NCBI RefSeq assembly: GCF_024347595.1 | Contig: NZ_AP025507.1 | Span: forward strand, 682,001-746,000 | Direction: 5' to 3' | From: Vibrio pomeroyi | GTDB lineage: Bacteria; Pseudomonadota; Gammaproteobacteria; Enterobacterales; Vibrionaceae | DNA length: 64,000 nucleotides | Shown: positions 30,301 to 51,620 of the stretch, piece by piece | Numbering within the stretch: position 1 is the first letter of the stretch | Layout: each line of letters opens with the position of its first letter | Translations under genes and position numbers: made by a program | The notes under the pieces: generated by a model | What the model was told of the DNA's origin: nothing | Database searches by the model: none | The model's input: only the letters and a program-made list of their open reading frames with translations

Positions 30301-30430
30301 AACTATTCCTTAGTTTCACGTGGGGTATGGTTGCCAAATTGGCTTGGATTAAAACTTTGCTATGGACAAAGAATAACCACGCATGTGATAATTTTGTTAA
30401 TTTATAGTTATTATATTCGGTATTTTTCTT

Positions 30431-31384: not shown

Positions 31385-31501
31385 CACAGTTTTTGTGGTA
31401 TTTCTTTTGTGAATATCCAATATAAATGGCATAAATTAGCTAAATTTTCGTCAGTTACGTAAATTTATTTAGTAGTCAGCGGTTAATTTGAGAGAGATTT
31501 T

Positions 31502-33688
31502 ATGAGCAGTCGTATTCAACAGGGAAGCTTGAGCATTGATAGCACCCTCTACCAATTAATTAATGAGCAAGTCATTCCTGGAACAGGCATTGTCGCAGAG
31601 GACTTTTGGCAATCTTTCGCCGCCATCCTTAAAGATCTGGCACCAAAGAATCGTGCTTTGCTTATCAAGCGTGAAGATCTTCAACATCAAATCGATGTGT
31701 GGCACCAAGAGCGTGCTGGTCAAACACTGGATGCAGCAGAGTATAAGCAGTTCCTACAGCAGATTGGCTACCTAGTACCTGAAGGCGAAGACTTTCAAGT
31801 TACCACCGCGAGCGTAGAGCCTGAAATCGCAACACAAGCTGGGCCGCAGCTTGTGGTGCCTATCATGAACGCGCGATTTGCACTTAACGCAGCAAACGCG
31901 CGCTGGGGCAGTTTATACGATGCGCTCTACGGCACTGATGTGATTAGTGAAAGCGACGGTGCCGAGAAAGGTGGAAGCTTTAACCCTGTTCGTGGCGCTA
32001 AAGTAGTGAGCTATGCTCGCGGTTTCCTTGACGACGCCGCACCGCTGAATGGTGTTTCTCATAAAGACGTGACGAAATACAGCATCAGTAATGTGAGTAT
32101 TGGCAACACGCTGACAGCAACGCTAGATAATGGCGAAGAAGTCACTCTCATTGATCGCAACCAGTTTATTGGTTACCAAGGAGACGCAAGCGCGCCTTCT
32201 TGTATCCTGCTTAAACACAACAATCTCCATATCGAAATTCAAATCGACCCGAGCGCGCCAATTGGTAGCGTCGATGTGGCGGGTATTAAAGATGTATTGG
32301 TGGAATCGGCACTGACCACGATTATGGATTGCGAAGATTCTGTAGCCGCCGTTGATGGTGAAGACAAAGCATTGGCTTACCGCAACTGGTTAGGCTTAAT
32401 GAAGGGTGACCTGCAAGAGTCGCTAGAGAAAAACGGCAAGACCATTGTTCGTAACCTGAATCCAGACCGTCAATACACCAGTGTGACGGGTGGTGAAATT
32501 TCCCTTAAAGGTCGCAGCATGTTGTTCATACGCAACGTGGGCCACCTAATGACTAACCCTGCGATTATTGATGCCGAAGGTAATGAAGTGCCTGAAGGTA
32601 TCATGGATGGCATGGTGACATCGCTGATCGCGATGCACGATTTAAAGGGCAATAGCCCTTACCAAAACTCGACCGCAAGTAGCATCAATATTGTAAAACC
32701 TAAGATGCATGGCCCTGAAGAAGTGGCTTTTACCAATGAGTTGTTTGGTCGCATTGAGGATGCACTAGGTTTAGACCGCTTCACAATCAAAGTCGGTATT
32801 ATGGACGAAGAGCGTCGTACCTCTGTGAACTTGAAAGAGTGTATTCGCGCAGCCAAAGATCGTGTTGTGTTTATCAACACAGGTTTCCTAGACCGAACGG
32901 GAGATGAGATCCACACCAGTATGGAAGCGGGTCCTTTTGCTCCTAAAACACAGCTTAAAACCATGACATGGATTGGCGCATACGAAGATCAAAACGTTGA
33001 TCTTGGCTTAGCTTGTGGCCTGCAAGGTAAAGCCCAGATTGGTAAAGGTATGTGGCCAGAGCCAGATAACATGGCCAAGATGATGGACGCGAAAATTGGA
33101 CACCCACAAGCGGGTGCCAATACCGCTTGGGTTCCTTCTCCAACTGCGGCGACTCTGCATGCCTTGCACTATCACAAGGTGAGTGTTCCTAGCCGTCAGA
33201 AAGAGCTTCGTGAGCGTGTGAGAGCAAATGTTGACGATATTCTTACTATCCCACTGTTAGGCAATCAAAAGCTGACAGCTCAAGATATCCAAAATGAACT
33301 GGACAACAATACACAAGGCATTCTTGGTTACGTAGTTCGTTGGATTGACCAAGGCGTAGGTTGTTCGAAAGTGCCTGATATTAACGATGTAGGACTAATG
33401 GAAGACCGTGCAACGCTGCGTATTTCAAGCCAACACATCGCTAACTGGTTACGTCACGGTATTTGCGAGGAAGCCCAGGTAATGAAAACCATGAAGCGCA
33501 TGGCAGCTGTGGTTGATGAGCAAAATGCTGGGGATCCAAGCTACCAAAACATGGCGCCTGATTTCGAAAACAGCATTGCCTTTTCAGCAGCGTGTCAGTT
33601 GGTATTTGAAGGCTGCGCTCAGCCGAGTGGTTATACTGAGCCAGTGTTACACGCGATGCGTCTAAAGCTGAAAGCGCAGAGTGCTTGA
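31502..33688 (+). CDS. glcB: Malate synthase G
   Basis: A 728-residue monomeric malate synthase joining acetyl-CoA and glyoxylate. Visible family segments are an N-terminal helical clasp, [40 protein letters not shown], the barrel residues in [41 protein letters not shown] and the C-terminal plug [19 protein letters not shown] with the catalytic Asp just before it (MED). Length matches GlcB (about 723). GAGAGA precedes the ATG. A separate 190-residue protein at 51048 resembles only its alpha/beta domain. Confidence 0.95.
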
Positions 33689-35492: not shown

Positions 35493-36326
35493 TTATTCTT
35501 GCGCCCAGTTGTCTGCTTCTATCTTCGCTAGTGCTTTCGCGGCTTTTTGTAGAGCAGGTAGGAACTTGATCGCCTCGTCCGGCTTTACTCGAATCACAGG
35601 TGCTTGGATTGCTAAGCCGAGATTAGATTGGCCCGTTGGCGACGGAATGAGTACCGCAATACACACCAAACCCGGTAGAAATTCTTCGTCATCAATCGCA
35701 AAGCCTTGGATCTTCGCTTCTTCGATGTCTTGCTCTAACACTGAGTAGTCGGTGATGGTTTTGACTGTGTACTGAGTCAATGGCACGTTTTCGATCAGTC
35801 TTCTGCGCTGTGATTTCGACATGTGAGCCAAAAACAGTTTGCCTGTCGCTGAGCAGTGCACAGGAACGCGAGAGCCGGGTTGCAGGTGGAAGCGAAGTGG
35901 CGCTTCGGTTTCTGCGCGGTCAAGGTAGATGATCTCACCGCTCGATAGTGCGGTTAGGTTGCAGCTCTCGCCGACTTCTGCTCGAAGGTTTTCAAGAATC
36001 GTGCGTCTTGCGCTGTGCATGGTGCTGTTGAACAGTAGGTTTTCAGCCAGCTTTCTGAGTCGAATGCCAGAGCTGTAATGTTTTTCATCACCGTCTCTTT
36101 GAATGATGCCTGCGGATTCTAATTGTTGCAGCATACGGTGCAGAGTGGGTTTCGGTAGTCCTGTTTCTTCGACGAGCCCTTGAAGGGAAATAAACTCGTC
36201 TTTTTGCGCTATCACCTCTAATAGTGCAAAAAGTCGGAGAGTGGGCGTATCTCCTTGAACTTGTGGTGTTTCTGTTTGCATACAGTGATTCATCCTTGCG
36301 ATATGTCTATGTGTAAGAGTGTACAT
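35493..36326 (-). CDS. IclR-family regulator, candidate regulator of the taurine cluster
   Basis: An IclR protein of up to 277 residues: N-terminal winged helix (FALLEVIAQKDEFISLQGLV, then EETGLPKPTLHRMLQQLE) and C-terminal ligand-binding domain (GESCNLTALSSGEIIYLDRA, SRVPVHCSATGKLFLAHMSK, QGFAIDDEEFLPGLVCIAVL). The N-terminal start is uncertain: in-frame ATGs are at 36326, 36293 and 36281, with AAGGA near the last two. It is divergent from pta, and a motif in that gap (36402-36414) recurs ahead of xsc. Other bacteria often use the MocR-type TauR for taurine genes; none is visible here. Confidence 0.82.
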   Translation of the reverse strand: MYTLTHRHIARMNHCMQTETPQVQGDTPTLRLFALLEVIAQKDEFISLQGLVEETGLPKPTLHRMLQQLESAGIIQRDGDEKHYSSGIRLRKLAENLLFNSTMHSARRTILENLRAEVGESCNLTALSSGEIIYLDRAETEAPLRFHLQPGSRVPVHCSATGKLFLAHMSKSQRRRLIENVPLTQYTVKTITDYSVLEQDIEEAKIQGFAIDDEEFLPGLVCIAVLIPSPTGQSNLGLAIQAPVIRVKPDEAIKFLPALQKAAKALAKIEADNWAQE

Positions 36327-36401: not shown

Positions 36402-36414
36402 TGGAACAATTAAT
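36402..36414. promoter_or_regulatory. TGGAACAATTAAT motif upstream of pta
   Basis: TGGAACAATT followed by AT one base later is repeated, in reverse orientation, upstream of xsc (41290-41303, TGGAACAATTCATT on the minus strand). It lies 22 bases before the pta ATG in the iclR/pta divergent region. It is a candidate site for the IclR-type regulator. Confidence 0.45.
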
Positions 36415-36435
36415 CTCAATAAATGGAATTTTAAG

Positions 36436-37572
36436 ATGAAGGCAATTAAACGGATTATTGATAAGGCGCACTTAGATCGTAAGCGTGTGGTTTTGAGCGA
36501 AGCGGAAGACCCTCGTGTACTGAAAGCGGCACGATTAGCAATAGATAAACAGCTCGCTTATATCACGCTGGTGGGCGACGAAAAGGCGATTATCGAAGCC
36601 GCTCAGCTGCATCATATTAATCTCGCGGGCATTCATATTGTTTCACCACAAACATCAGCACTCAAAGCTGTGTTGGCTGAACGAATGTATGAGTTAAGAA
36701 AAGCCAAAGGCATGACTTATGAAGATGCATTGGAGAAGGTTAAAGACCCACTGATTTTTGCCAACTTGATGGTAAGAGAAGGGCTGGTTGACGGCACGGT
36801 CAATGGCGCGGTTTATACCACATCAGATGTGGTGCGAGCTGCGCTGCAGATCATTGGTCCAGCGCCAGACAGTGAATTGGTATCGAGTTTCTTTTTAATG
36901 ATGTTGTGCGAGCCTTTCCATAACCTTAAAGGCGGCATGATTTTCAGTGATTGTGGATTGGTAATTAACCCCAATGAAACCGAGCTTGCATCAATTGCAG
37001 TGGCGGCTTCAAACAGTGCACAAACGCTGTTGATGGAAGAACCGAAAGTGGCAATGCTCTCGTTTTCGACCAATGGCAGTGCCAAACATGAATCAGTCGA
37101 TAAGGTACGTAATGCCGCCCAGTTAGTGAAGCAACGTTGCCCGGGAATTGCGGTTGATCAGGATGTTCAACTCGACGCGGCGATTGTCACTGAAATAGCA
37201 GCGAAAAAATTGCCCGATTCCGAGGTGAAGGGTGAATCTAACGTGCTGATATTTCCTAACTTAGAAGCAGGTAATATCGGTTACAAGCTTGCTGAAAGGC
37301 TAGGTGGTGCGGTTGCGATTGGTCCGTTGTTGCAAGGGCTGAATCAACCTGCCAATGACTTATCCAGAGGGTGCAGTGCCGAAGATATCTTTAATGTAAT
37401 CGCGGTGACTGCCGTGCAAGCACAACAAAGTAAAACGACAAATCCAACGACGGATGTTGAAGCTGATGCTCAAGAAGCTTCAGTAGATAAAAAAGCTTCA
37501 GAAGATCAAAATGCTTCAGAAGATCAAAAAGCTAAAGAAACAGCAGAATCAGGATTTGAGTTTAGGTACTAA
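36436..37572 (+). CDS. pta: Phosphate acetyltransferase (taurine-cluster type)
   Basis: A 378-residue enzyme converting acetyl phosphate, the product of Xsc, into acetyl-CoA. The PTA/PTB domain covers about residues 3-330 (RVVLSEAEDPRVLKAARLAI, DGTVNGAVYTTSDVVRAALQ, SFFLMMLC, MLSFSTNGSAKHESVDKV, SNVLIFPNLEAGNIGYKLAE). It lacks the long N-terminal regulatory region of housekeeping Pta. About 40 extra C-terminal residues are low-complexity and repetitive (KKASEDQNASEDQKAKE), from an 18-bp tandem repeat. It is followed after about 57 bases by a TauE-type exporter gene. Confidence 0.9.
   Translation: MKAIKRIIDKAHLDRKRVVLSEAEDPRVLKAARLAIDKQLAYITLVGDEKAIIEAAQLHHINLAGIHIVSPQTSALKAVLAERMYELRKAKGMTYEDALEKVKDPLIFANLMVREGLVDGTVNGAVYTTSDVVRAALQIIGPAPDSELVSSFFLMMLCEPFHNLKGGMIFSDCGLVINPNETELASIAVAASNSAQTLLMEEPKVAMLSFSTNGSAKHESVDKVRNAAQLVKQRCPGIAVDQDVQLDAAIVTEIAAKKLPDSEVKGESNVLIFPNLEAGNIGYKLAERLGGAVAIGPLLQGLNQPANDLSRGCSAEDIFNVIAVTAVQAQQSKTTNPTTDVEADAQEASVDKKASEDQNASEDQKAKETAESGFEFRY
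37477..37530 (+). repeat. Three 18-bp tandem repeats in the 3' end of pta
   Basis: Copies at 37477-37494, 37495-37512 and 37513-37530 all begin GCTTCAG(A/T)AGAT. The last two differ at a single base. They encode a disordered A-S-(E/V)-D-(Q/K)-(N/K) tail outside the enzyme fold, a site prone to copy-number change without loss of frame. Confidence 0.85.
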
Positions 37573-37629
37573 GACTCACGCTTAAAGCTCGCACTCATAC
37601 TAAGTAAAAACACCTAATTAGGATTGCTA

Positions 37630-38397
37630 ATGGAGTTACCTGTTTTACTCGCCATTCTCGCCACCATTGCGGTAGGTACCTATTTCCAAACCGTCACTGG
37701 ATTTGGACTTGGCATTATCGTGATTGGTCTAACGGTCAGCCTTAATCTGGTTTCGTTGCCCGTGATTGCCGCCGTGGTCAGTATCGTGACCTTGTTTAAT
37801 TGTTTGGTCGCGTTGATGGGTAAGCCACTGCTTGGGGAACTCAAGATTCTGGTGGTGTTAGTGATCGGTATTATCCCCGGCGTGTCGTTGGGCGTATTTT
37901 TACTGGATGAGTTAAGTGAGTCGGCAACGCATATCCTGCGAGGGCTATTGGGCGCTATGGTGTTATTCGCAGGTCTGAGCTTTATGTTCAAACCTAAAAC
38001 CAGAAAAGATCGCTCGGCAACGATATCCTTCTTGTTGTCTGGCTTTAGTTCTGGGCTCGCGGGAGGCTTGTTTGGTATGGCGGGCCCACCGATTGTTTAC
38101 CATCTCTATCGACAGCCTTTTACGCTCGATCTGGTACGGAGCACACTTTTGATGGTGTTCGCTTGTACCTCTATGTCTCGTACTGTGAATGTCTACGCTG
38201 CAGGTGACATGGATGCGAGCATACTGTGGTTGTCTGCAATTGCAGTTCCTTTGGTGGCGCTTGTTACTATATTTGCTCGGCGCTTCCCGCCGCCGTTGTC
38301 GAATGACCAACTGAGGAAGTTAGTATTTATGGTGTTGATGTTGATTGGTGGGTATTTGATGGCCGTATCGGCATGGTCGTTGTTTGGCTTTTCGTAA
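37630..38397 (+). CDS. tauE: TauE/SafE-family sulfite/organosulfonate exporter
   Basis: A 255-residue inner-membrane protein with about eight hydrophobic segments in two repeats. The family-typical segments are TVTGFGLGIIVIG near the N-terminus and GFSSGLAGGLFGMAGPPIVY in the second repeat. TauE/SafE proteins export sulfite or sulfoacetate released from sulfonates. Here it would remove the sulfite set free by Xsc. AGGA six bases before the ATG at 37630 sets the start, rather than the TTG two codons earlier. It is co-directional with pta and probably in its operon. Confidence 0.85.
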   Translation: MELPVLLAILATIAVGTYFQTVTGFGLGIIVIGLTVSLNLVSLPVIAAVVSIVTLFNCLVALMGKPLLGELKILVVLVIGIIPGVSLGVFLLDELSESATHILRGLLGAMVLFAGLSFMFKPKTRKDRSATISFLLSGFSSGLAGGLFGMAGPPIVYHLYRQPFTLDLVRSTLLMVFACTSMSRTVNVYAAGDMDASILWLSAIAVPLVALVTIFARRFPPPLSNDQLRKLVFMVLMLIGGYLMAVSAWSLFGFS

Positions 38398-38448: not shown

Positions 38449-40170
38449 TTAAACTCGCTTTAGCATCTCAAAGATACTCCTAGATAACCCAAACAAGCAG
38501 CTTTCCTGTACATCTAAAGTAATGTTACTGCGGTAGTACGGGCTTAAATCGACGCCCATTCCCACACCATGAATCTCAATACCGTTTTTGGTCGACTCGC
38601 GCTCAATCACTTGTTTGAGATGGTTATCCAAATAGAACTGATCATTGGCTGTGCTGGTGGCGGTATCCATCGGACAGCCGTCTGAGAACACAATCAACAC
38701 CTTTCGCTGTGCGCTATGTTGCTGCAAGCGCTGGCTAGCGAACTGAACCGCTTCTCCATCAATCCCTTCTTTAAAGATGTCTGCTTTGCGAAGACTGGCA
38801 ATGCCAAGGCGAGAGCGTCTCCAGTGGGTATCAAAATCCTTAAACACAATGTGTCGAACTTCGTTTAAACGGCCTGGGTGTTTCGGTTGACCTTGCTTGA
38901 GCCACTGTCGGTAAACCTTGCCACCATTCCAGTTGTTGGTGGTGAAGCCGATAATCTCGAAAGGGATGTTGGCTAGCCCGACCGATTTGAGAATAGTATC
39001 CATCAGTAGGCTGAGCTTATGACTGTGTTTTTGCATTGAACCTGAGCAGTCCATCAAAAACGTGATGGCACATTGATGGGATGCGCCAATGCCAGGTTGA
39101 TAGAAGACAGCACGATCCAACGGCGAAGTGATGAGTTTAGTGAGAGTGGTGGCGTTAACAATGCCTTCTTCTAAATGATCCTGACGTCGATTCCTTTCGG
39201 GCGTCGCAACAAAGCGGGCGAGCATAGCAGCCAAGCGGCGAGTGTTAACTTGTCTCGCCATAATGTCATCGGTGAGTTTTTGCCTAAGTTCGAGTAACAG
39301 GGCGCGCCTGACGAGTTTATCTGCCGCGATCACTTGGTCAAATTCGGAATTAAAGACCTGATAATTGGCGCCCGAAAGTTCAAACACCTTGCTGCTGCCT
39401 GTTATGTCGGTATCGACGTCTTCATCTTGAATGTCGCCATCAACGATAAGAGCAAGCTGCGCGAGGATCTTGATGTCTTCTTCAACCGTAGGTGTCGGCG
39501 AGTTATTACTCTCTTGTTCTTGGTTGATGAGTTCTTGCGCTAAAGAGGCCAGTTCATTGGTGCAGTGAGCAAACTGTAGTTGGTCGGCTCGATGTTCCTT
39601 CAAGCGCTTCAAGCTGCTTCCGAAAATAGGCACGATGCCCGCACGAGTTGATTCAATGGTTTCAGCAATCGGCTCAGAGACTGGAACACCGGTTAAGCGG
39701 GTGTGGATGACCTGCATCAGCGTGAACAGTAACATCCCAATTCGTGATTCAGTAAAGCCATTCTGATGATATTGGTCGCTCCAATACGCAAAGTTGAACT
39801 GAATGCTCTTAGTCACACCTTTTAGGTAAGACGGGACTTGTGACTCGATTCGTACCTGTTCGCAAAAATCATATAACAGACGTTCGACTTCGTTTTTCGG
39901 TCGTAATGAATAGTGAAGATCAGTATCTGACAACAAGAGTCGCAGCGCTGATGAATCGATCTTACCTTGCATTGAGAGCTTGCTGTTTGTTAACTCATGG
40001 CGAGAAACAAAGGTGAGATCGTTGGTGTGTGCAGACTGATAATAGCAGGGGTTATTGCCGTTATAGAGACGCTCTCCCCGATAATTCAGGTTCAATTCTC
40101 CACTGACCGCTCTAGCGACAGACACACCAAGGTCGAGGATCTTTTTCTGCTGAGAAGAAACATTGGCCAT
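38449..40170 (-). CDS. CobT-like VWA-domain protein
   Basis: A 573-residue protein resembling the aerobic cobaltochelatase subunit CobT: an N-terminal region of about 210 residues, an acidic middle (EQESNN to DIQDEDVDTD, about 217-255), and a C-terminal von Willebrand A domain with MIDAS motif D374-C-S-G-S378 and VLIVFSDGCPMDT. It follows the CobS-like ATPase gene after 3 bases, so the two are made as a pair. No cobN or other cobalamin gene is in the window. AAA+/VWA pairs of this kind act as metal-insertion or remodelling machines; the target here is unknown. Confidence 0.85.
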   Translation of the reverse strand: MANVSSQQKKILDLGVSVARAVSGELNLNYRGERLYNGNNPCYYQSAHTNDLTFVSRHELTNSKLSMQGKIDSSALRLLLSDTDLHYSLRPKNEVERLLYDFCEQVRIESQVPSYLKGVTKSIQFNFAYWSDQYHQNGFTESRIGMLLFTLMQVIHTRLTGVPVSEPIAETIESTRAGIVPIFGSSLKRLKEHRADQLQFAHCTNELASLAQELINQEQESNNSPTPTVEEDIKILAQLALIVDGDIQDEDVDTDITGSSKVFELSGANYQVFNSEFDQVIAADKLVRRALLLELRQKLTDDIMARQVNTRRLAAMLARFVATPERNRRQDHLEEGIVNATTLTKLITSPLDRAVFYQPGIGASHQCAITFLMDCSGSMQKHSHKLSLLMDTILKSVGLANIPFEIIGFTTNNWNGGKVYRQWLKQGQPKHPGRLNEVRHIVFKDFDTHWRRSRLGIASLRKADIFKEGIDGEAVQFASQRLQQHSAQRKVLIVFSDGCPMDTATSTANDQFYLDNHLKQVIERESTKNGIEIHGVGMGVDLSPYYRSNITLDVQESCLFGLSRSIFEMLKRV

Positions 40171-40173
40171 GGT

Positions 40174-41154
40174 TTACGACTCCGACTGCGCATAACTCTG
40201 AGTAGGCGTTTCTAGGGCCTCACCAAAGCAGCGGAAGTAATATTCGCTCACCAACTCTTTCTCTTCATCTTCACAACGGTTAAGGAATGAAAGCCTAAAT
40301 GCTGTGGCTACGTTATCGAATATTCGGATATTTTCAGCCCATGTGATCACGGTTCTCGGAGACATTACCGTCGACAGATCGCCTGCTCTAAAACCATTTC
40401 GCGTTAAACCAGCAGTAGCGATCATTTTCTCAACTAACTGCTGACCACTTTCATTGTTCAGCTCTGGGCGCTTGGATAACACGATCTTGGTTTCATGTTG
40501 CGGATCTAAATAGTTAAGCGTAGCGATGATGTTCCATCGGTCAAGCTGGCTATGGTTAAGCACTTGAGTACCGGAATACAAACCCGAGAAATTACCTAAC
40601 CCCAACGTGTTACAGGTGGCAAATAGGCGAAAAGAAGGGTGAGGCGTAATCACTCGGTTTTGCTCTAAAGAGGTGTATTTGCCGTCTTGCTCTAAGAGTT
40701 GTTGGATCACAAACATCACATCTGGTCGTCCTGCATCGTATTCGTCTAATACCAGAGCGATGGGTTGCTGGATACTTTGCGGAAGAATGCCTTCTTTAAA
40801 CTCTGTCACCTGCATTCCATCTTTAATGACGATGCTGTCCTTTCCTATGAAATCCAATCTGCTTAAGTGTCCGTCTAGGTTGATCCTCAAACACGGCCAG
40901 TTCAATCTCGCAGCAATCTGTTCAATGTGGGAAGACTTACCTGTTCCGTGTGTACCTTGTATCAACGTGCGGCGATTAGAGGTGAAACCCGCCAATATCG
41001 CTAGTGTTACTTCAGGATCAAAACAGTAGTTAGGATCGACCTTGGGTACATACTCTCCCGCATGTTGAAACGCCAATACCGTTAGGTTGCTGTCGATGCC
41101 AAAACACTCTCTCACACTTACTGGTTGCGTTGGTATCAATTCCGCATCATTCAT
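40174..41154 (-). CDS. CobS-like AAA+ ATPase
   Basis: A 326-residue AAA+ ATPase close to CobS of the CobNST cobaltochelatase and related to MoxR ATPases. Walker A is G67-T-H-G-T-G-K-S74, with the CobS-typical continuation HIEQIAARLNWPCLRINLDG. Walker B and the following loop are ALVLDEYDAGRPDVMFVIQQ, and sensor region FATCNTLGLGNFSGLY is present. It lies immediately upstream of the CobT-like gene and is divergent from xsc across 265 bases containing shared inverted repeats. A role in activating or maintaining an enzyme of the taurine pathway is an inference from position. Confidence 0.87.
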   Translation of the reverse strand: MNDAELIPTQPVSVRECFGIDSNLTVLAFQHAGEYVPKVDPNYCFDPEVTLAILAGFTSNRRTLIQGTHGTGKSSHIEQIAARLNWPCLRINLDGHLSRLDFIGKDSIVIKDGMQVTEFKEGILPQSIQQPIALVLDEYDAGRPDVMFVIQQLLEQDGKYTSLEQNRVITPHPSFRLFATCNTLGLGNFSGLYSGTQVLNHSQLDRWNIIATLNYLDPQHETKIVLSKRPELNNESGQQLVEKMIATAGLTRNGFRAGDLSTVMSPRTVITWAENIRIFDNVATAFRLSFLNRCEDEEKELVSEYYFRCFGEALETPTQSYAQSES

Positions 41155-41289
41155 TTTTCATCCCTCTTAATAGCTTCCATTGACTGCCGCGATGGGCGGT
41201 ATGTCATCGATTATTAACAGCTCACTCTAAGTTAACGGCACTTTTTGTACGAAAAACTATCAATAATGTGATCTGGTTTTATTAATTAG

Positions 41290-41378
41290 AATGAATTGTT
41301 CCAATTTAATATAAAAAGTTGACGCGCAAAAAATCTACTACTAAGGTGAAAATGAATTCGAAAAAGAGACAATTCATT
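41290..41378. promoter_or_regulatory. xsc promoter with three AATGAATT half-sites
   Basis: A -35 TTGACG (41319-41324) with a poor -10 TAAGGT (41342-41347) precedes xsc. AATGAATT occurs at 41290-41297 and 41351-41358, and its complement AATTCATT at 41371-41378, so the last two form an inverted repeat with 12 bases between arms, placed at the expected transcription start. The first is part of the motif shared with pta. Placement downstream of the -10 suggests repression relieved by substrate. Confidence 0.55.
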
Positions 41379-41419
41379 CCGAAAAATGAAATTTTGGTTA
41401 ACTCAAGGAGAATGGAAGA

Positions 41420-43231
41420 ATGAGTGAGCAAGAAAAACGTACGGTTGTTTCCGGCACAGTAACAATGACACCATCAGAAGCGTTCGTTGAAACTATGGTT
41501 GCTAATGATGTTACCGACATGTTCGGCATCATGGGGTCAGCATTTATGGACGCAATGGATATCTTTGCTCCTGCTGGCATTCGATTGGTCCCAGTGGTAC
41601 ACGAGCAAGGTGCTGCTCACATGGCAGATGGCTACTCTCGTGTATCTGGTCGCCATGGTGTGGTTATCGGGCAGAATGGCCCAGGTATTAGTAACTGTGT
41701 AACTGCGATTGCAGCGGCATTCTGGGCACACAGCCCGGTCGTGATTGTGACGCCAGAGACTGGCACTAAAACAATGGGCTTAGGTGGTTTCCAAGAGTGT
41801 AACCAACTTCCAATGTTCCAAGAGTTTACTAAGTATCAAGGACACGTAACGCACCCAGACCGTATGGCAGAATACACGGGCCGATGCTTTGACCGAGCAA
41901 TGAGCGAAATGGGTCCGACTCAACTGAATATCCCACGTGATTATTTCTACGGTGAAACTCAAACCGAGATCCCTAAACCAGCGCGTTTAGATCGTGGTCC
42001 TGGTGGTGAAAAGTCTCTGAATGAAGCGGCAGACCTAATTGCTGAAGCGAAATTCCCAGTCATCATTTCTGGTGGCGGCGTGGTAATGGCTGATGCAGTT
42101 CAAGAGTGTGCGGCATTGGCAGAAAGACTAGGCGCCCCCGTAGTAAACAGCTACCTACACAATGACTCTTTCCCTGCGAGTCACCCATTATGGTGTGGTC
42201 CTTTAGGCTACCAAGGTTCGAAAGCAGCAATGAAGTTGATGGCTCAAGCGGATGTGGTTATCGCTTTGGGTACACGTCTTGGTCCATTCGGTACCTTGCC
42301 TCAACATGGCATGGATTACTGGCCGAAAGACGCGAAAATCATCCAGATCGATGCAGACAACAAGATGCTTGGCCTCGTTAAGAAGATCTCTGTTGGTATC
42401 TGTGGCGATGCAAAAGCAGCGGCTGTGGCATTAGCTGAAAGACTGGAAGGTCGTGCACTGTTGTGTGATGACAACAAAGGCGCTCGCCAAGACACAGTAG
42501 CAACAGAAAAAGCGTTGTGGGAAAAAGAGCTTGATGAGTGGACGCACGAACGTGACTCGTTCAGCTTGGATATGATTGAAGAAAACTCGCACGAGACTCC
42601 GTTCTCTGGTGGTGAATATCTACACCCACGCCAAGTATTGCGTGAACTAGAAAAAGCGATGCCAGAAAACGTTATGGTCTCAACGGATATCGGTAACATC
42701 AACTCGGTTGCAAACAGCTACTTACGCTTTGAAAAACCACGCAGCTTCTTTGCGGCAATGAGTTTCGGTAACTGTGGTTACGCGTTCCCGACCATCATTG
42801 GTGCGAAAGCAGCAGCACCTCATCGTCCAGCTATCTCTTATGCAGGTGACGGGGCGTGGGGCATGAGCTTGATGGAGACCATGACATGTGTTCGTCATAA
42901 CATTCCAGTGACAGCCGTGGTGTTCCACAACCGTCAATGGGGTGCAGAGAAGAAGAACCAAGTCGACTTCTACAACCGACGCTTTGTTGCTGGTGAACTG
43001 GATAACCAAAGCTTTGCGGAAATCGCACGAGCAATGGGCGCTGAAGGTATCACGGTTGATAAGCTAGAAGATGTAGGCCCAACTCTTCAAAAAGCCATTG
43101 ATATGCAAATGAACGAAGGCAAAACAACCATCATTGAAATCATGTGTACTCAGGAACTGGGCGACCCGTTCCGCCGAGATGCACTATCAACGCCGGTTCG
43201 TTTCCTAGATAAGTACAAAGACTACGTATAA
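41420..43231 (+). CDS. xsc: Sulfoacetaldehyde acetyltransferase
   Basis: A 603-residue thiamine-diphosphate enzyme that converts sulfoacetaldehyde and phosphate into acetyl phosphate and sulfite. The N-terminal domain holds the catalytic Glu in VPVVHEQGAAHMADGYSRVS and MFGIMGSAFMDAMDIFAPAG. The C-terminal ThDP motif begins SYAGDGAWGMSLMET and ends about 25 residues later at VVFHNRQWGAEKKN. Length and these segments are typical of Xsc, and its co-localisation with pta, tauXY and tauKLM supports that over acetolactate synthase. AAGGAG lies before the ATG. It is divergent from the CobS/CobT-like genes. Confidence 0.95.
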   Translation: MSEQEKRTVVSGTVTMTPSEAFVETMVANDVTDMFGIMGSAFMDAMDIFAPAGIRLVPVVHEQGAAHMADGYSRVSGRHGVVIGQNGPGISNCVTAIAAAFWAHSPVVIVTPETGTKTMGLGGFQECNQLPMFQEFTKYQGHVTHPDRMAEYTGRCFDRAMSEMGPTQLNIPRDYFYGETQTEIPKPARLDRGPGGEKSLNEAADLIAEAKFPVIISGGGVVMADAVQECAALAERLGAPVVNSYLHNDSFPASHPLWCGPLGYQGSKAAMKLMAQADVVIALGTRLGPFGTLPQHGMDYWPKDAKIIQIDADNKMLGLVKKISVGICGDAKAAAVALAERLEGRALLCDDNKGARQDTVATEKALWEKELDEWTHERDSFSLDMIEENSHETPFSGGEYLHPRQVLRELEKAMPENVMVSTDIGNINSVANSYLRFEKPRSFFAAMSFGNCGYAFPTIIGAKAAAPHRPAISYAGDGAWGMSLMETMTCVRHNIPVTAVVFHNRQWGAEKKNQVDFYNRRFVAGELDNQSFAEIARAMGAEGITVDKLEDVGPTLQKAIDMQMNEGKTTIIEIMCTQELGDPFRRDALSTPVRFLDKYKDYV

Positions 43232-43308: not shown

Positions 43309-43661
43309 AAATTAAGCTCTAACACTAGCCATTAATTTTAAATTGGATGATGAAATATAGTGGCTTAACGACAGAGTTTTTTTCAAAGATTCTTAATAGT
43401 ACTGATATCTAAATATTGGGTCATATATTTCTATTATTTCGCCCTAAATATTCGAGCCCTAATGAAATAACCAAGATTAATAGGTGCTCGGTTTCAGTAA
43501 TAGAGACTTATCAATAATTATTATTAGTTGCTTTTAAATAGTAATTAACGACAAGTCGATAGAGTTATTAGACTTTAGTCTGTGTATTTTATTACATGTC
43601 AGTTTTTAACGAATAAATTTAAATTTAGTTATTTATATTGTCGGAGTAGTTGGAACCAAGT
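43309..43661. other. 353-bp AT-rich stretch before the FRG gene
   Basis: Strongly AT-rich, with no open frame that I can support and no recognisable repeat. Its composition differs from the flanking taurine genes and resembles that of the FRG gene and of the region after it (44469-44730). Confidence 0.5.
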
Positions 43662-44468
43662 ATGAACAATAAACGTTATATCAGCACACTCGAAGAACTG
43701 TATAAAATAATTGATTCACTAATGAATGAATGCAGTGATCAACGTGGTTTGATGTATAACGTGTGTGATTATGAAAATAATAATCTAATGCCAAGTTTAG
43801 GCCGGTCCAATCGTAAGAACATACGCCGTGTCGAACAAGAGCTGCTTTCAACAGTGAGAGTTTACGGTGGTCACTCGCTGAGTTCTAACGACATAAATGA
43901 CTGGTTATTGATGTGTTTAGCCAAGAAGCAGGGCTTTCCCACACGTTTACTGGAATGGACTGATAACCTGTTAAATGCGCTTTGGTCGGTGTGTCACAGC
44001 CAAAGTAAAGACTGCATAAATATAATTAAAGCTATTGATTATCATCGGGTTAGTGTTTTTAACTCGCCGTGTGATCTCAACAACACTCAGATGTTTAATG
44101 TGGCGGATTGCGATCAGCAAGAGCCACGCAAGGACAAGTGGTATTCCATTCACCCATTTAAGGAAGGTGGCAATGATGCCATTCAGCCTTTGTACGATGA
44201 GAAAGAATGTTCAAACGGTCTAGTGTCCGTTCATATTCTTCCATCAGTGAAAGTAAACCTGATAAAGGAGTTAATATCCATGAATGTTTTAAATGAACCG
44301 ACAGAGTATGTCGAAGAGAAACTAACGGATTTAAAAAACGAAGCACATGCAGATAACAACCAAGTAATAAATAAAGGTGACGGCAATATCGAATTGCAAG
44401 TTAATACTCATGATCGTCAACTTGAACAGTATGGTCGTAAGTATCATCAAGACTTTGATTTCGACTAA
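43662..44468 (+). CDS. FRG-domain protein, likely acquired
   Basis: A 268-residue cytoplasmic protein. The FRG domain spans about residues 10-140: QRG in place of the F-R-G motif, then NLMPSLGR, and the diagnostic DWLLMCLAKKQGFPTRLLEW followed by TDNLLNALWSVCH (family form: AQHhGlPTRLLDWT). The C-terminal half is unlike anything I recognise and is hydrophilic. GGAA six bases upstream supports the ATG at 43662; a TTG four codons earlier is possible. AT-rich codon use and AT-rich flanks set it apart from the surrounding xsc and tauXY genes, suggesting insertion into the cluster. FRG proteins are often found in mobile or defence-type regions; function is unproven. Confidence 0.75.
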   Translation: MNNKRYISTLEELYKIIDSLMNECSDQRGLMYNVCDYENNNLMPSLGRSNRKNIRRVEQELLSTVRVYGGHSLSSNDINDWLLMCLAKKQGFPTRLLEWTDNLLNALWSVCHSQSKDCINIIKAIDYHRVSVFNSPCDLNNTQMFNVADCDQQEPRKDKWYSIHPFKEGGNDAIQPLYDEKECSNGLVSVHILPSVKVNLIKELISMNVLNEPTEYVEEKLTDLKNEAHADNNQVINKGDGNIELQVNTHDRQLEQYGRKYHQDFDFD

Positions 44469-44730: not shown

Positions 44731-45168
44731 ATGAATATGCAAACCAATGCAGCGACATTCGTGCAGGAAAACCAAGTCGATACCGCCTTTTTACAGTCTT
44801 TTAGTGATGCGTGGAATAACCATGATATTGAAGCGCTGATGTCTTTCATGACAGAAGACTGTGTATTCCACACGGTGGCAGGAGAAGGCTTGCTTGGAAA
44901 CACTATCGAAGGGTACGAAGCGGTTCGAAATAGCTTTGAATTGGTTTGGCAGAACTTTCCAGATGCGGCTTGGAGCGACCCTGTCCACTTTGTGTGCGGT
45001 GACCGTGCTGTGAGTGAATCAACGTTTTCTGCGACTAACCCAGATGGCAGCGTCATCGAAGCTCGCATGGTCGACGTGTTTACCCTCAGAGATGGAAAAA
45101 TCAGCGTAAAAAATGCCTTCCGTAAAACAAGACCTCTTTTGACTCCTAACAACACTCCCAAGAGCTAG
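44731..45168 (+). CDS. tauX: Taurine dehydrogenase small subunit, SnoaL-like
   Basis: A 145-residue SnoaL/NTF2-like protein (FLQSFSDAWNNHDIEALMSF, MTEDCVFHTVAGEG, IEARMVDVFTLRDGKISVKN). In Rhodobacter and relatives TauX, a small subunit of this kind, pairs with the flavoprotein TauY to oxidise taurine to sulfoacetaldehyde and ammonium. Gene order tauX-tauY with 48 bases between them supports that role. AAAGGA precedes the ATG. The fold alone does not prove the function. Confidence 0.8.
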   Translation: MNMQTNAATFVQENQVDTAFLQSFSDAWNNHDIEALMSFMTEDCVFHTVAGEGLLGNTIEGYEAVRNSFELVWQNFPDAAWSDPVHFVCGDRAVSESTFSATNPDGSVIEARMVDVFTLRDGKISVKNAFRKTRPLLTPNNTPKS

Positions 45169-45216: not shown

Positions 45217-46665
45217 ATGAGTTTAGTAATGGAACAACCGACAGCCGATGTGCCGCCAAAGGTGAAAAGCACCCAAGCAAAAGATAAATACGATCCAAAA
45301 TACGATCCACTTAAAGACAAGAGCCCAGGTCACGGCAAGGAATACGCCCCGACTTATTGGGTAGATACCGCAGGCGCACCACCTGAAGATGATGGCCCAA
45401 TCACGTCAGACATGGATGTCGATGTGGCCATTATCGGTTCAGGCTACACAGGCTTAAGTACCGCGATACACCTTGCTGAAATGTACGGCATTAAAGCGAC
45501 GGTGATTGAAGCTAACCGTATGAGTTGGGGCTGCAGTACCCGAAATGGTGGCCAAGCACAGTGTGCTTCTGGGCGTTTGAAGCGTTCTCAGTGGATTGAA
45601 CGCTGGGGCCTAGAAACGGCGCTAAAAATGCACCGCGAGTGTGTGGATGGCATGGAAACGTTCAAGTCACTGATCAAAGACATCGATTGTGACCCACAAC
45701 CGGGTGGTCACCTATATGTGGCTCACCGTCCAAAAGTGATGGCAACGCTTGAGAAAGAAGCTAAGTTGCTGCGTGACACGTTCGATTACGATGCGCAGAT
45801 CTTAGATGCGGAAACTGTAAAGCGTGATTATGTTGGCGACCAAGAAGCGGCTGGCGCGATGCATGAACCCGAAGGGATTGGTATTCATGCAGGGAAACTG
45901 GTGTTTGGTTACCTAAGAAAGGCGCGAGCACTCGGCGTTAAAGTTCATCCATCTAGCCCAGTGATGGGTTGGGAAACTCGTGGCGGTGTGCATTACCTGA
46001 AAACGCCAGGTGGTGTTGTGAAGGCGCGTTCTGTTGGTGTTTGTACGGGTGGGTATACCAGCCAAGGTTTGCATTCTGAGCTTAAGAACCGCCTGTTGCC
46101 AGTGCTTTCGAACTCGATGGTGACACGTCCGTTAACTCAAGACGAAATTGCCGCGTGTAACTTCAAAACCAATCAAGTGATTACTGATACTCGAATTCTG
46201 CGCCACTACTACCGTTTGCTACCAGATAACCGAGTGCAGATTGGTACACGCAGTGCCATCAGTGGCAAGAACGCACCTGAAAAGAAATATGAAGACATGT
46301 TGAGAGCGGATTTAACCCGAAAATTCCCGTCTCTCGATCAGATCCAAATCGATTATTCATGGTGGGGCTGGGTGGATGTTAGCCACGACATGATGCCGAG
46401 AATTTATCAGCCGAATCCAAAACAGTCCATCTTCTACGCACTGGGTTATGGCGGCAATGGCGTGATGTATTCCGCTCAAGCAGGGAAGCGCCTTGCACAG
46501 TGGATAGCAGGTGAAGGTCACAAGCTCGACCTACCAATATTTGAATCAAAACTTCCGTTCCCCAACGTGAGGGAAGTGGTGGAATCAGAGATGTTTGCAC
46601 CGTTTCGAAGAATGGGGCAGCGGTTCCTTTATCAGTGGTATTCGTTAAAGGATGAAAGGCTGTAA
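45217..46665 (+). CDS. tauY: Taurine dehydrogenase large subunit, FAD flavoprotein
   Basis: A 482-residue DadA/GlpO-type FAD oxidoreductase. An N-terminal extension of about 65 residues rich in Lys, Asp and Pro precedes the dinucleotide-binding motif VDVAIIGSGYTGLSTAIHLA, then EANRMSWGCSTRNGGQAQCA, a substrate-side domain, and the C-terminal FAD loop ALGYGGNGVMYSAQAGKRLA. TauY takes electrons from taurine and releases sulfoacetaldehyde. Position between tauX and the TRAP transporter genes and upstream supply to Xsc support the call. TAGGAGAG precedes the ATG. A general amino-acid oxidase is the alternative. Confidence 0.85.
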   Translation: MSLVMEQPTADVPPKVKSTQAKDKYDPKYDPLKDKSPGHGKEYAPTYWVDTAGAPPEDDGPITSDMDVDVAIIGSGYTGLSTAIHLAEMYGIKATVIEANRMSWGCSTRNGGQAQCASGRLKRSQWIERWGLETALKMHRECVDGMETFKSLIKDIDCDPQPGGHLYVAHRPKVMATLEKEAKLLRDTFDYDAQILDAETVKRDYVGDQEAAGAMHEPEGIGIHAGKLVFGYLRKARALGVKVHPSSPVMGWETRGGVHYLKTPGGVVKARSVGVCTGGYTSQGLHSELKNRLLPVLSNSMVTRPLTQDEIAACNFKTNQVITDTRILRHYYRLLPDNRVQIGTRSAISGKNAPEKKYEDMLRADLTRKFPSLDQIQIDYSWWGWVDVSHDMMPRIYQPNPKQSIFYALGYGGNGVMYSAQAGKRLAQWIAGEGHKLDLPIFESKLPFPNVREVVESEMFAPFRRMGQRFLYQWYSLKDERL

Positions 46666-46782
46666 CTACCCGAACATTGTTTCCAAAATAGGGAAATAGA
46701 ACTACGACCAGGAAAGTTGTACCAGGTCACCTTGTGAGCAAAGTACAGGCAGGAAGTCTGTATGATAGGAAAGGTTAAGACT

Positions 46783-47784
46783 ATGAAATTGATTAAAAAT
46801 AAAATTATTGCTGGTGTCACTATTGTAGCAACAGCGGTGTTATCTCATACCGCGGCAGCAGCGAATTTTAAAATGGCTATCGGTGATGCTGCTGGTGGTA
46901 CGCAGTGGGAATTGGCGACCTCATTCTCTGAGCTGATGGAGCAAAAAACAGACGGTAAAGTGAAAATCGATCTGTTCCCGAACGGCCAATTAGGCAATGA
47001 GCAAGACACCGTGAACGATGCGGCAATCGGTCTTCTCGACTTCTCTGTACTGGCGATCAACAACGTGACGCCTTTCTCCCCAACCGTTGGTCTATTGACC
47101 ATGCCTTACGTGATTCAAAGCGCAGAAGAAGCAGTGCTACTGACTCAAGGCCAAGTAGGCCAAGATTTAGTTGATAACACGATTCGTGACGCTGGTGTTC
47201 GTATTGTCGGTTGGGCTTATTCTGGCTTTAGGGTTTTGACTAACTCGAAAAAGCCTGTTGCTTCACCAGAGGATCTTAAAGGGTTAGTGATTCGTGTACC
47301 TCGTAACGAAATCATGATCGCGTCTTACCAAGCATGGGGTGTAAACCCAACACCAATGGCATGGTCTGAGACTTTCACTGGCCTGCAACAAGGCGTGGTT
47401 GATGGTCAAGACAACCCTTACATTACAGTCCACGCGATGAAGTTCAACGAAGTACAAAAGTACGTGACCAACATTCGCTACATTTTCTCTCTAGAACCTC
47501 TAATCGTGAGTGAAACGGTCTTCCAACAACAGACACCTGAAATGCAAAAGATCATTCTTGAAGCGGGTCAGGAAGCGACAGAGCATAGCTTTGCTTATCT
47601 AGAAAATACGGAAAACAAGATCCGCGAAGAGCTACAAGCGAAAGGCATGGTATTCACAGACCCAGCAGACAACGAGCAAGAGTGGATCAGCAAGGTGACT
47701 AAGTCAGTTTGGCCTAAGTTCTACTCAAGCATTGGGGGCAAAGACAAGTTAGACGACGTTCTTGAGTTACTAGGTAGAAAGTAA
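46783..47784 (+). CDS. tauK: TRAP transporter substrate-binding protein, probable taurine
   Basis: A 333-residue periplasmic DctP-family protein. It has a Sec signal (hydrophobic core IIAGVTIVATAVLSHTAAAA), then the family's opening FKMAIGDAAGGTQWELATSF, ELMEQKTDGKVKIDLFPNGQLG, and the central signature VGWAYSGFRVLTNSKKPVAS, DLKGLVIRVPRNEIM with the conserved ligand-binding Arg. AAAGG eight bases before the ATG at 46783 sets the start; a second ATG is 21 bases earlier. Taurine as ligand is inferred from the tauXY/xsc context. It is followed by a long hairpin before the permease genes. Confidence 0.87.
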   Translation: MKLIKNKIIAGVTIVATAVLSHTAAAANFKMAIGDAAGGTQWELATSFSELMEQKTDGKVKIDLFPNGQLGNEQDTVNDAAIGLLDFSVLAINNVTPFSPTVGLLTMPYVIQSAEEAVLLTQGQVGQDLVDNTIRDAGVRIVGWAYSGFRVLTNSKKPVASPEDLKGLVIRVPRNEIMIASYQAWGVNPTPMAWSETFTGLQQGVVDGQDNPYITVHAMKFNEVQKYVTNIRYIFSLEPLIVSETVFQQQTPEMQKIILEAGQEATEHSFAYLENTENKIREELQAKGMVFTDPADNEQEWISKVTKSVWPKFYSSIGGKDKLDDVLELLGRK

Positions 47785-47795
47785 CGATTAGATTC

Positions 47796-47853
47796 GCCCT
47801 ATCTGCTGTTCTCCGCTACTTAATCACCTAGCGATAGAACAGTGAGATAGGGC
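47796..47853 (+). repeat. Long hairpin between tauK and tauL
   Basis: Three stacked stems pair over 21 bases: GCCCTATCT/AGATAGGGC, CTGTTCT/AGAACAG and CGCTA/TAGCG, with single unpaired bases between and a 10-base loop (47819-47828). There is no T run. Position directly after a binding-protein gene suggests protection of the tauK mRNA from 3' decay or partial termination. Confidence 0.85.
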
Positions 47854-47948
47854 ATTTACATGGCTGTACTCGTTGATCTGTTCTGTACCTGATCTTTTTA
47901 GGACCGTGAGCGACTGGTTGTCATGTGGAAATCAACATTGGAGGTTAT

Positions 47949-48491
47949 ATGTCAGTCGCTAAAACAATAAAAAAGCACTTAAACAACATTGAGGAATATA
48001 CATGTTGTCTGCTGCTCGCAAGCTTTGTCCTATTGCTGTTCACACAAATCCTTACTCGTCAGTTCTTTGATTACTCTATCCCTTGGGGGGATGAGGTCGC
48101 TACTTACATGTTCGTTTGGTTTGCCTATCTAGGGGCTGTTGTTGCGGCCAAGATGTCGGCGCACAACCGAGTGAGCTTTCACTTTAAATTCTTTCCGCCA
48201 ATCGTGCAGACCGTGAGTGAAACCATCGCTGACTTCTTATGGCTCTGTTTCAACGGCTACTTCGTTTACCTCAGCTACGACTTCGTGTTCAACAAAATGA
48301 ATCTGTTTTGGAAGTCTCAGACCACAGGTATCCCAATGAAGTACTTCTACATGATTTTACCTATCGCGTTTTCACTGATGATGATTCGAATTATCTGGAA
48401 CAACTATGAGCGTTTATTCAAAGGCGCAACCAACGAAGATCCAGAAGTCAAAGAGCTGCGCAAAATGACGGCACAAAAGTCAGCGCAATAG
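47949..48491 (+). CDS. tauL: TRAP transporter small permease
   Basis: A 180-residue DctQ-family protein with four membrane segments (about residues 22-42, 52-72, 90-110, 128-150) and the signature LTRQFFDYSIPWGDEVATYM, then FVWFAYLGAVVAA. GGAGG four bases before the ATG at 47949 fixes the start; eight open upstream codons lack a ribosome site. It pairs with the large permease 37 bases downstream. Confidence 0.88.
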   Translation: MSVAKTIKKHLNNIEEYTCCLLLASFVLLLFTQILTRQFFDYSIPWGDEVATYMFVWFAYLGAVVAAKMSAHNRVSFHFKFFPPIVQTVSETIADFLWLCFNGYFVYLSYDFVFNKMNLFWKSQTTGIPMKYFYMILPIAFSLMMIRIIWNNYERLFKGATNEDPEVKELRKMTAQKSAQ

Positions 48492-48528
48492 TCATCACAG
48501 AGAATAGTCGTAATAGAGAGATGTAATA

Positions 48529-49869
48529 ATGGAATCCTATTTAACTCTAATTTTATTTGGTGGCTTTTTAACGCTGTTAATTCTGGGCGCACCAATCACA
48601 GTATCACTGGCCGGCGCTTCGATGGCGGCTTATATGTTGCTCGACAAAAATCCCATCGCCTTAGTACAAATCGCGTTTACCTCGGTGGGCAACTTCCCAT
48701 TAATGGCGCTGCCAGCCTTTGTTCTTGCGGGTGCATTAATGGAGGCGGCGGGGATCTCCAAACGTCTGGTGGATATCGCCGAAAGCTTAGCTGGTCCCGT
48801 AACAGGTGGCCTTGGCGCGGCAACGGTAATGGCGTGTCTTTTCTTTGGCGCTATCTCGGGTTCAGGCCCTGCAACCACCGCCGCGGTAGGTATGCTAATG
48901 GTGCCTGCGATGGTGAAACGTGACTACGATAAGAGCTACGCCTCGGCCGTTACGGCGGCATCCGGTGGGTTGGGCATTATCATCCCGCCGTCCATTCCTC
49001 TTGTTATCTTTGGTATCTCGGCAATGGGCTTAATGGCGCCTCCAGAAGCCATTGCTCAACACGGCCAGTTTGCTTCTTTATCGATTCCAAAACTGTTTGT
49101 CGCTGGGGTTGTACCTGGCTTCATCATGGCGTCGACGCTAGTGGTAACTAACTACTTCATTGCTAAGCGAGAAGGCTATAAAGGGCTGACCGAAACGTGG
49201 TCGTTTGGCGATGTAAGGCATTACTTACGCCGCGGATTATGGTCGATATTAGCGCCATTCTTGATTCTTGGCGGTATCTACAGCGGCATGTTCACACCAA
49301 CAGAATCCGCAGTTGTAGCGATATTCTATTCGTTGTTTGTTGGGCTTTTTATTCACCGCGAGCTTTCGTTCAAAAGCGTGATGAAATCTCTATCGACCAC
49401 GACATGGATCACCGGACGTGTGTTGTTGATCCTCTTTGCAGCTACCGTGTTTGGACGCTTGTTGATCGAGCAAAAGATCCCGGTTGTCGTAGCGGAATCG
49501 CTACTCAGTTTCACCGATAACATGTACATGGTGTGGGCGCTTACGATTACCTTGTTGTTGTTCATCGGCATGTTCATGGAAACCTTGGCTGCGATCATGA
49601 TCATCGTGCCAGTGTTACTACCAATCATGTACATGCTGGGCGCTGATCCAACTCACGTGGGCATTGTGGTGGTGTGTACCTTATCGATTGGTTTTGCAAC
49701 GCCGCCACTTGGGGAGAATATCTTTGTCGCATCGGGAATAGGGGGCTCAACGGTTGAGCAAATCACCGCGAAGATCCATCCCTTTGTTCTTGCTTCTGTT
49801 GTGGGCGTATTCGTTATCGCTTTCTTCCCACAAATTACGCTTTGGCTACCGTCCTTAGTCGGCTATTAG
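48529..49869 (+). CDS. tauM: TRAP transporter large permease
   Basis: A 446-residue DctM-family permease with about twelve membrane segments. Family segments include FPLMALPAFVLAGALMEAAG, FFGAISGSGPATTAAVGMLM, GGLGIIIPPSIPLVIFGISA and SIGFATPPLGENIFVASGIG. Together with TauL it forms the sodium-driven channel unit served by TauK. It ends 11 bases before the Cache-domain gene, so that gene belongs to the same operon. Confidence 0.9.
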   Translation: MESYLTLILFGGFLTLLILGAPITVSLAGASMAAYMLLDKNPIALVQIAFTSVGNFPLMALPAFVLAGALMEAAGISKRLVDIAESLAGPVTGGLGAATVMACLFFGAISGSGPATTAAVGMLMVPAMVKRDYDKSYASAVTAASGGLGIIIPPSIPLVIFGISAMGLMAPPEAIAQHGQFASLSIPKLFVAGVVPGFIMASTLVVTNYFIAKREGYKGLTETWSFGDVRHYLRRGLWSILAPFLILGGIYSGMFTPTESAVVAIFYSLFVGLFIHRELSFKSVMKSLSTTTWITGRVLLILFAATVFGRLLIEQKIPVVVAESLLSFTDNMYMVWALTITLLLFIGMFMETLAAIMIIVPVLLPIMYMLGADPTHVGIVVVCTLSIGFATPPLGENIFVASGIGGSTVEQITAKIHPFVLASVVGVFVIAFFPQITLWLPSLVGY

Positions 49870-51047: not shown

Positions 51048-51620
51048 ATGAATATGCTGACACTAGACAAAACAGAACTTCACAGAAACCATTCAACTTT
51101 TATTGCTGAAGCTGTCTTTGCCGTCGAAATGGTGAAAGCAGACAAGCAACTCGAAAAGCAGAAAATGGCGAAACAGTTGCTTGATACTCTATTCCCTCTC
51201 GAGTCGGGTTCTCACGAAGATGTAGTGAGCTACGAGATTGACTACCGACACGTTCAGGTTTACTTCAAAAACGGTGAACACACAGGTTTGAAACGCGCTA
51301 AGCACTTTGTGGCTTACACGGGTGACAAGTCTAAACCTTCTTCAATCCTGTTCCGTGATGAGAGCGGTACGCACGTTGAAGTGACAATCGGCGCTCGTAA
51401 AGGCACGGGTCATTTGGAATTGGTTGATATTGAAGATATTCAACTAGAGACGTGTACCACATTTGGTCAAACTGAGGCTAGTCGCTCTTCAGGAATCCGT
51501 CACTGGGTGAGCCTAGTGAAGGGCGATGAAAGTGGTCGACCGAATGCATCGAGTGAAGACAAAGAGTTCACAGCGAAAAATGGCGAAGACTACAACCTAG
51601 GTTTTTGCTTCGCGATCTAA
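51048..51620 (+). CDS. Stand-alone protein resembling the alpha/beta domain of malate synthase G
   Basis: A 190-residue cytoplasmic protein. Its middle aligns by eye with malate synthase G at 31502: YTGDKSKPSSILF against [33 protein letters not shown] against [33 protein letters not shown] against [15 protein letters not shown], and WVSLVKGDE against WLGLMKGDL. The segment corresponds to the alpha/beta domain inserted in the enzyme's barrel. The catalytic barrel and C-terminal plug are absent, so it cannot be an active synthase. It may bind a ligand or interact with the enzyme. GAGG lies upstream of the ATG. It follows the taurine operon but has its own AT-rich promoter region. Confidence 0.65.
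   Translation: MNMLTLDKTELHRNHSTFIAEAVFAVEMVKADKQLEKQKMAKQLLDTLFPLESGSHEDVVSYEIDYRHVQVYFKNGEHTGLKRAKHFVAYTGDKSKPSSILFRDESGTHVEVTIGARKGTGHLELVDIEDIQLETCTTFGQTEASRSSGIRHWVSLVKGDESGRPNASSEDKEFTAKNGEDYNLGFCFAI

Follow-up and report, generated by a model that had tools for sequence, protein, structure and literature searches.

Three described systems that combine an AAA+ ATPase with a VWA-domain protein are closest to the pair considered here: CobS and CobT of the cobaltochelatase CobNST, CbbQ and CbbO of Rubisco, and NorQ and NorD of nitric oxide reductase. According to PMC5385338, the metal ion-dependent adhesion site (MIDAS) of CbbO binds an exposed Asp of Rubisco, and CbbQO is needed by only some Rubiscos. 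The present pair is encoded in a 64,000-nucleotide stretch of the Vibrio pomeroyi genome (contig NZ_AP025507.1, positions 682,001 to 746,000; hereafter, the window), where a CobT-like gene (38449..40170, - strand) and a CobS-like gene (40174..41154, - strand) are located beside xsc (41420..43231, + strand), the gene of sulfoacetaldehyde acetyltransferase (Xsc). Xsc performs the desulfonating step in the use of taurine and other C2 sulfonates. The genetic link between the pair and xsc is strong, and the pair is probably a CobN-independent AAA+/VWA remodelling machine, an activase or maturase, dedicated to one Xsc subtype.

Both open reading frames (ORFs) of the pair are open at these coordinates, with 3 bp between them. 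The CobS-like protein (326 aa), the proposed motor, has visible Walker A (GTHGTGKS) and Walker B (LVLDE) motifs, and the adjoining CobT-like protein (573 aa), the proposed adaptor, comprises an N-terminal helical domain, a disordered linker and a VWA domain with a MIDAS, which is the composition of an AAA+/VWA pair of the MoxR type. The CobT-like ORF matches Pfam CobT_C with 139 bits and Pfam CobT with 61 bits; its NCBIfam CobT score is 238 bits, under the equivalog cut-off of 759, and the NCBIfam CobS score of the other ORF is 468 bits, under the cut-off of 558. The Xsc of the window scores 1061 bits vs. a cut-off of 676. The ORFs, family scores and coordinates confirm the original prediction, made from the DNA sequence without database searches, that two adjacent genes resembling cobaltochelatase subunits diverge from xsc in a taurine cluster and share a region with it; this cobS–xsc intergenic region, common to both genes, is 265 bp long (41155..41419, no strand assigned).

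As in CobNST, the two genes are adjacent, and both proteins are homologous to the respective subunits over their full length (433 bits for CobS; for CobT, an alignment of the N-terminal and VWA parts to the solved CobT of CobNST). However, the linker between these two parts is shorter than in the solved CobT, and the pair is linked to xsc; no linkage to B12 genes was observed, in an analysis that included no search for a corrin pathway. The absence of CobN, also predicted originally, held in a genome-wide search: there is no match to the CobN family (PF02514) in the complete genome of the window (G000; 5.66 Mb, 2 contigs, completeness 100), in which the window gene is the only CobT_C match. 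The CobS of the pair also belongs to a separate clade. A 99/99 branch of a 62-protein CobS tree parts 38 proteins of the xsc-linked type from 24 canonical ones, 12 of them from outside the window's class and 12 from within it; eight near-identical rows were omitted from this tree and eight from the 53-row Xsc tree described below, and the G756 genome was also left out.

The residues D374, S376, S378, T411 and D497, the last two presumably belonging to the MIDAS like the others, do not vary across an alignment of 32 CobT homologues, whose identity to the window protein falls as low as 37%. The predicted VWA part of the CobT-like protein structurally resembles NorD. Solved CobT chains are missing from the 50 structure matches listed, which is uninformative, as a sequence search finds them. 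The CobS-like protein matches a chain with a CbbQ/NorQ domain weakly (38 bits). Members of the group are labelled 'cobaltochelatase CobT-related' or similarly in databases (Vibrio, Photobacterium, Halomonas, Aromatoleum, and others); the name 'Cobaltochelatase CobT-related protein', given to this very group, states neither a function nor the link to xsc. Among openly licensed PMC papers (subscription papers were not covered), none linking the pair to xsc or taurine was found.

The distribution of the pair follows that of xsc. Among 197 Vibrionaceae genomes, the CobT-like gene is present in 38; xsc over the cut-off was detected in 37 of them, the 38th (G756) has xsc in two pieces, and none of the other 159 genomes has xsc over the cut-off. 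At E 0.001, the xsc search matches 195 of the 197 genomes because other thiamine enzymes match as well, and only xsc over the cut-off and that of G756 were counted. In G756, CobT, Xsc, TauX and DctM are all fragmented, which points to assembly quality as the probable reason. All 38 Vibrionaceae pairs are divergent from xsc, at a distance of 1.3–2.3 kb. In a second family (f188), which on the basis of named plasmid matches appears to be Burkholderiaceae, the CobT-like gene is present in 49 of 150 genomes, xsc over the cut-off in 51 and both in 48, leaving out 13 of the 62 genomes with CobT matches, in which these are only weak (43–68 bits). The one genome of this family with CobT and without xsc over the cut-off (G933) has a contig of 4,957 bases that starts inside xsc. 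In all 48 genomes both genes are on the same contig, within 5 kb in 42 of them (30 convergent, 12 divergent) and 17–28 kb apart in six.

Fisher's test, in which kinship was ignored, gives p = 2e-41 for the association in Vibrionaceae and 2e-34 in f188. At the genus level, all 12 genera that contain both states among the matches listed (four of Vibrionaceae and eight of f188) switch the pair and xsc together, xsc of the other subtype aside (sign test, 0.0005). In a set of 303 genomes of the window's class, the pair type was found in five, all with xsc, which is present in 18 of the 303 overall; 25 genomes of this set match CobT, nine of them only weakly, and the remaining 16 divide into five with the pair type (one of which, G265, has both types) and 11 with the canonical type only. 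In a set of 398 genomes of the phylum, seven of the 139 with CobT matches carry the pair type, all of the same class and all with xsc. Thus, of 92 different genomes with the pair (38 + 49 + 5), 90 have a whole xsc, G756 has it in two pieces and G933 has a fragment. In a Chromatiaceae metagenome-assembled genome, the pair lies about 10 kb from an xsc truncated at the contig end. As a control, no xsc label was found in 13 canonical-type stretches from genomes of the window's class; of the 11 genomes that carry the canonical type alone, six do have xsc, on other contigs. The functional link to xsc that had been originally suggested is therefore upheld, with an association that is near-complete in two families and is also seen in five further genomes outside these; neither a cobN elsewhere in the window's genome nor a lack of association with xsc in other genomes was observed.

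The gene order in the window is pta-tauE-(cobT-cobS)-xsc-FRG-tauX-tauY, followed by transporter genes. Twelve of 14 related Vibrio loci share the order tauE-cobT-cobS-xsc, which is more than expected by chance; one of the other two (L003) has the same arrangement, its tauE being truncated at the end of the contig, and the other (L010) has no tauE there. An operon-like row of xsc, a phosphotransacylase gene, cobS and cobT can be noted in G143. Three of eight plasmid records were looked at; the pair occurs with xsc in the named records of Caballeronia sp. NK8 pNK83 (annotated), Cupriavidus campinensis MJ1 and Photobacterium sp. DA100 (both mapped here), and the Sinorhizobium record (29% identity) is probably canonical.

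The association concerns one Xsc subtype. In a tree of 53 Xsc rows, a 40-row clade (99/96) comprises every one of the 38 rows that have the pair, together with two that lack it, and the other 13 pair-free rows fall outside this clade; a first, quick tree gave the same split with a support of 60. In f188, three genomes have xsc of another subtype and no pair, with scores of 961–983 bits, while the best xsc of the 48 genomes with both genes scores 1056–1088 bits. Two of the three (G934 and G911) have xsc beside tauX, tauY, a permease gene and an IclR gene, and these are the most telling pointers to Xsc-subtype specificity. Judging from sequence comparison, the client of the pair would be best narrowed to this one subtype.

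The window's Xsc has an acidic linker loop at about residues 384–400. The loop has 19–23 residues in 46 rows with the pair, many of them closely related, and 13–16 in the six nearest pair-free rows; it has 19 in the two pair-free genomes of the main clade (G042 and G183) and also in a distant pair-free group. Residue E392 is Glu in all 46 rows and in G042 and G183, and is replaced by a gap in the six nearest pair-free rows. Position 387 is acidic in all 46 rows and in one of the eight nearest pair-free rows, and is Ala in G042 and G183. This pattern emerged from inspection and serves as a lead rather than as proof. No solved Xsc structure was found within E 1e-60 (the best match, BbmA, is at 2.6e-60), so the exposure of the linker loop was judged from the alignment alone.

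Taken together with the known systems, the following mechanism can be proposed. The CobS-like protein would form an ATPase ring, to which the CobT-like adaptor would be joined via its N-terminal part together with the segment that precedes the VWA domain. The MIDAS of the adaptor would grip Xsc, the best guess for the contact being the acidic loop residue E387 or E392 (numbering of the window's protein). ATP-driven motion would then open Xsc for maturation or, more probably, for rescue when its cofactor has reached a dead-end state or been damaged. We infer the contact residue and the nature of the repair, as well as the role of Xsc as the physical client, which is proposed from the linkage. 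The best reading is by analogy with the action of CbbQO on Rubisco and of NorQD on nitric oxide reductase. With CbbQ/CbbO the pair shares the location of AAA+ and VWA genes next to that of the known or presumed client enzyme (PMC5385338); the client, however, would be another enzyme, and no Rubisco gene is present among the scanned window neighbours (xsc, pta, tauE, tauXY, the regulator and the transporter genes; no genome-wide search was made). NorQD differs in that, according to PMC13036017, it acts in the insertion of iron into an enzyme of the membrane; neither nitric oxide reductase genes nor such a membrane enzyme were seen among the same neighbours, again with no genome-wide search.

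More specifically, Xsc might need an activase against damage by its own product. Sulfite set free in the active site would attack or trap thiamine diphosphate, and the motor would open Xsc and free the ruined cofactor, comparable to the removal of inhibitory sugar phosphates by Rubisco activases; this version is put forward tentatively. A family search places Xsc among thiamine-diphosphate enzymes, and bisulfite cleaves thiamine. We know of no earlier AAA+ activase for an enzyme of this type. If one Xsc subtype indeed has an ATP-using helper of its own, AAA+/VWA machines acquire a new class of client, and the genes now named 'cobaltochelatase CobT-related' acquire a function and are no longer misread as signs of B12 synthesis. 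Such a helper would also give a simple prediction for growth on taurine and for the production of active Xsc in other hosts.

Several observations weigh against a machine dedicated to this Xsc subtype. CobN is present in three of ten genomes with the pair. The draft genomes G042 and G183, which belong to one genus and are 96 and 87% complete, contain the pair-linked Xsc subtype and no CobT match. The branch that parts the 38 rows with the pair from these two is unsupported (46/9), so the pair may have been lost in them. Position 387 is also acidic in six of the seven rows of the distant pair-free group. Finally, the pair and xsc are on separate contigs in G047 and G265.

An explanation that is rather unlikely, and is nevertheless the strongest of the rivals, is that the pair is needed in the same pathway and serves another protein (Pta, TauE, TauXY or the regulator), tracking Xsc indirectly. 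All of these candidates are encoded in the same cluster, most mapped loci have an IclR gene close to the pair, and in G047 the pair stands in an operon-like row with dddP and pta (dddP, pta, cobS, cobT; L050 9171-14220) with xsc on a different contig; dddP, the gene of dimethylsulfoniopropionate lyase, scores 665 bits vs. a cut-off of 600. However, no close TauY was found in five of the 16 pair genomes submitted to the search, and G042, G183, G911 and G934 have TauY without the pair. Against the Pta type, the pair of G143 comes with another phosphotransacylase type, and the window's Pta type is located near xsc in the pair-free G042 and G183. TauE was not seen near the pair in the nine full-length stretches from genus g434 (no genome-wide TauE search was made). 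TauXY, the Pta type and TauE are thus lowered as clients by their distribution.

The original prediction had allowed for either an activation or a metal-loading machine. Activation would fit the AAA+/VWA precedents, no positive evidence for metal loading was obtained, and the overall interpretation is supported in part, through the functional link. A role in metal insertion into Xsc or a different enzyme of the cluster, like that of NorQD for iron or CobNST for cobalt, seems very unlikely. The relatives CobST and NorQD do serve metal insertion (PMC13036017), and the pair has a CobW-family gene next to it in L154 and L144 and at a distance of about 9.6 kb in L137. These three are the only loci with CobW among those searched, each with an amidohydrolase gene (L154 10621-13238; L144 11692-14306; L137 16821-19423), and the CobW metallochaperone was rejected as a constant partner. 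Moreover, Xsc is of the thiamine-diphosphate type; such enzymes need Mg2+, and we know of no metal-inserting helper for them. For comparison with the CobW/amidohydrolase loci, TauR regulons include COG523 and COG1574 members, as listed in PMC5320631.

Equally improbable is passive co-transfer, in which the pair would be a mere passenger of a mobile gene cluster, with no part in taurine use. The cluster is patchy, and the pair is found on large replicons and plasmids. The linkage persists, however, across differing gene orders and strands and without tauXY; the motif residues are invariant despite the drop in overall identity, and other Xsc subtypes occur in similar clusters without the pair.

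It is extremely unlikely that the two proteins are true cobalt chelatase subunits, paired with CobN or spare B12 genes: in favour are the full-length homology to CobS and CobT and the CobN genes of G485, G543 and G143, whose tested neighbours in G485 (four) and G143 (three) are not AAA+/VWA proteins, so that the pair may work with CobN in these two, but seven of the ten pair genomes, the window's included, have no CobN match, two of the three CobN genes of G543 adjoin ChlI-like and VWA genes of their own, and the sub-cut-off scores, the separate CobS clade and the linkage to xsc also speak against this reading. A canonical B12 chelatase was rejected for the window pair on the lack of a CobN match, the scores and the clade.

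The cobS–xsc region of the window contains a candidate IclR-type operator, TAGAATGAATTGTTCCA (41287..41303, no strand assigned), with one mismatch to TGGAAY-N5-RTTCCA, a motif picked after inspection. A weaker candidate copy with two mismatches is located before pta (36402..36418, no strand assigned). Among 42 cobS–xsc regions, many of them near-identical and some genomes being counted twice, the motif has 0 or 1 mismatch in 21, two in 15 and three in six, the last being no better than shuffles. The window's cobS–xsc region contains no exact inverted repeat (7-base arms, spacer of up to 9), and no RNA element reaches the gathering score in the window.

On the other side of the pair are the genes of a TauE/SafE-family (sulfite) exporter (37624..38397, + strand), phosphate acetyltransferase Pta (36436..37572, + strand) and an IclR-family regulator that often neighbours the pair (35493..36326, - strand). 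Downstream of xsc are genes of a SnoaL-like small protein (44731..45168, + strand) and an FAD-dependent oxidoreductase of the DAO family (45217..46665, + strand), which we take to be TauX and TauY of taurine dehydrogenase, and the DctP, DctQ and DctM genes of a TRAP transporter (46762..49869, + strand). The FRG-domain gene between xsc and tauX (43650-44468, + strand) matches the PADLOC candidate PDC-S15 with 83.5 bits; it has a diverged counterpart (23–29% identity) in g439-type loci, and none was seen in g434-type stretches. A role of the pair itself in phage defence was rejected, as PADLOC gave no CobT match and only 21 bits for CobS.

Variants of the cluster can be noted in other genomes. 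In G953, pta, tauE and the pair are flanked by two xsc copies (L134 4737-13100). In L071 (5040-6077), xsc and the FRG gene are separated by a gene of the Cons_hypoth698 family, to which the sulfate exporter TauZ belongs; such a gene also occurs in Photobacterium sp. DA100. A further group of CobST pairs, belonging to the canonical clade, was found in gammaproteobacterial genomes (L051-L063), and eight of the 11 gammaproteobacterial genomes that carry only the canonical type have no CobN match. Neighbours of some of these pairs are an AurF-like oxygenase (L054, L056) or XdhC and a B12-binding protein (L051). Canonical-clade pairs without CobN may have other clients.

Beyond the transporter genes, a 190-aa ORF (51048-51620, + strand) contains only a malate synthase G insertion domain. 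Genes of an isocitrate lyase-family protein and malate synthase, with a LysR regulator, adjoin the taurine cluster on its other side (28702-33688), which fits growth on acetyl-CoA obtained from taurine.
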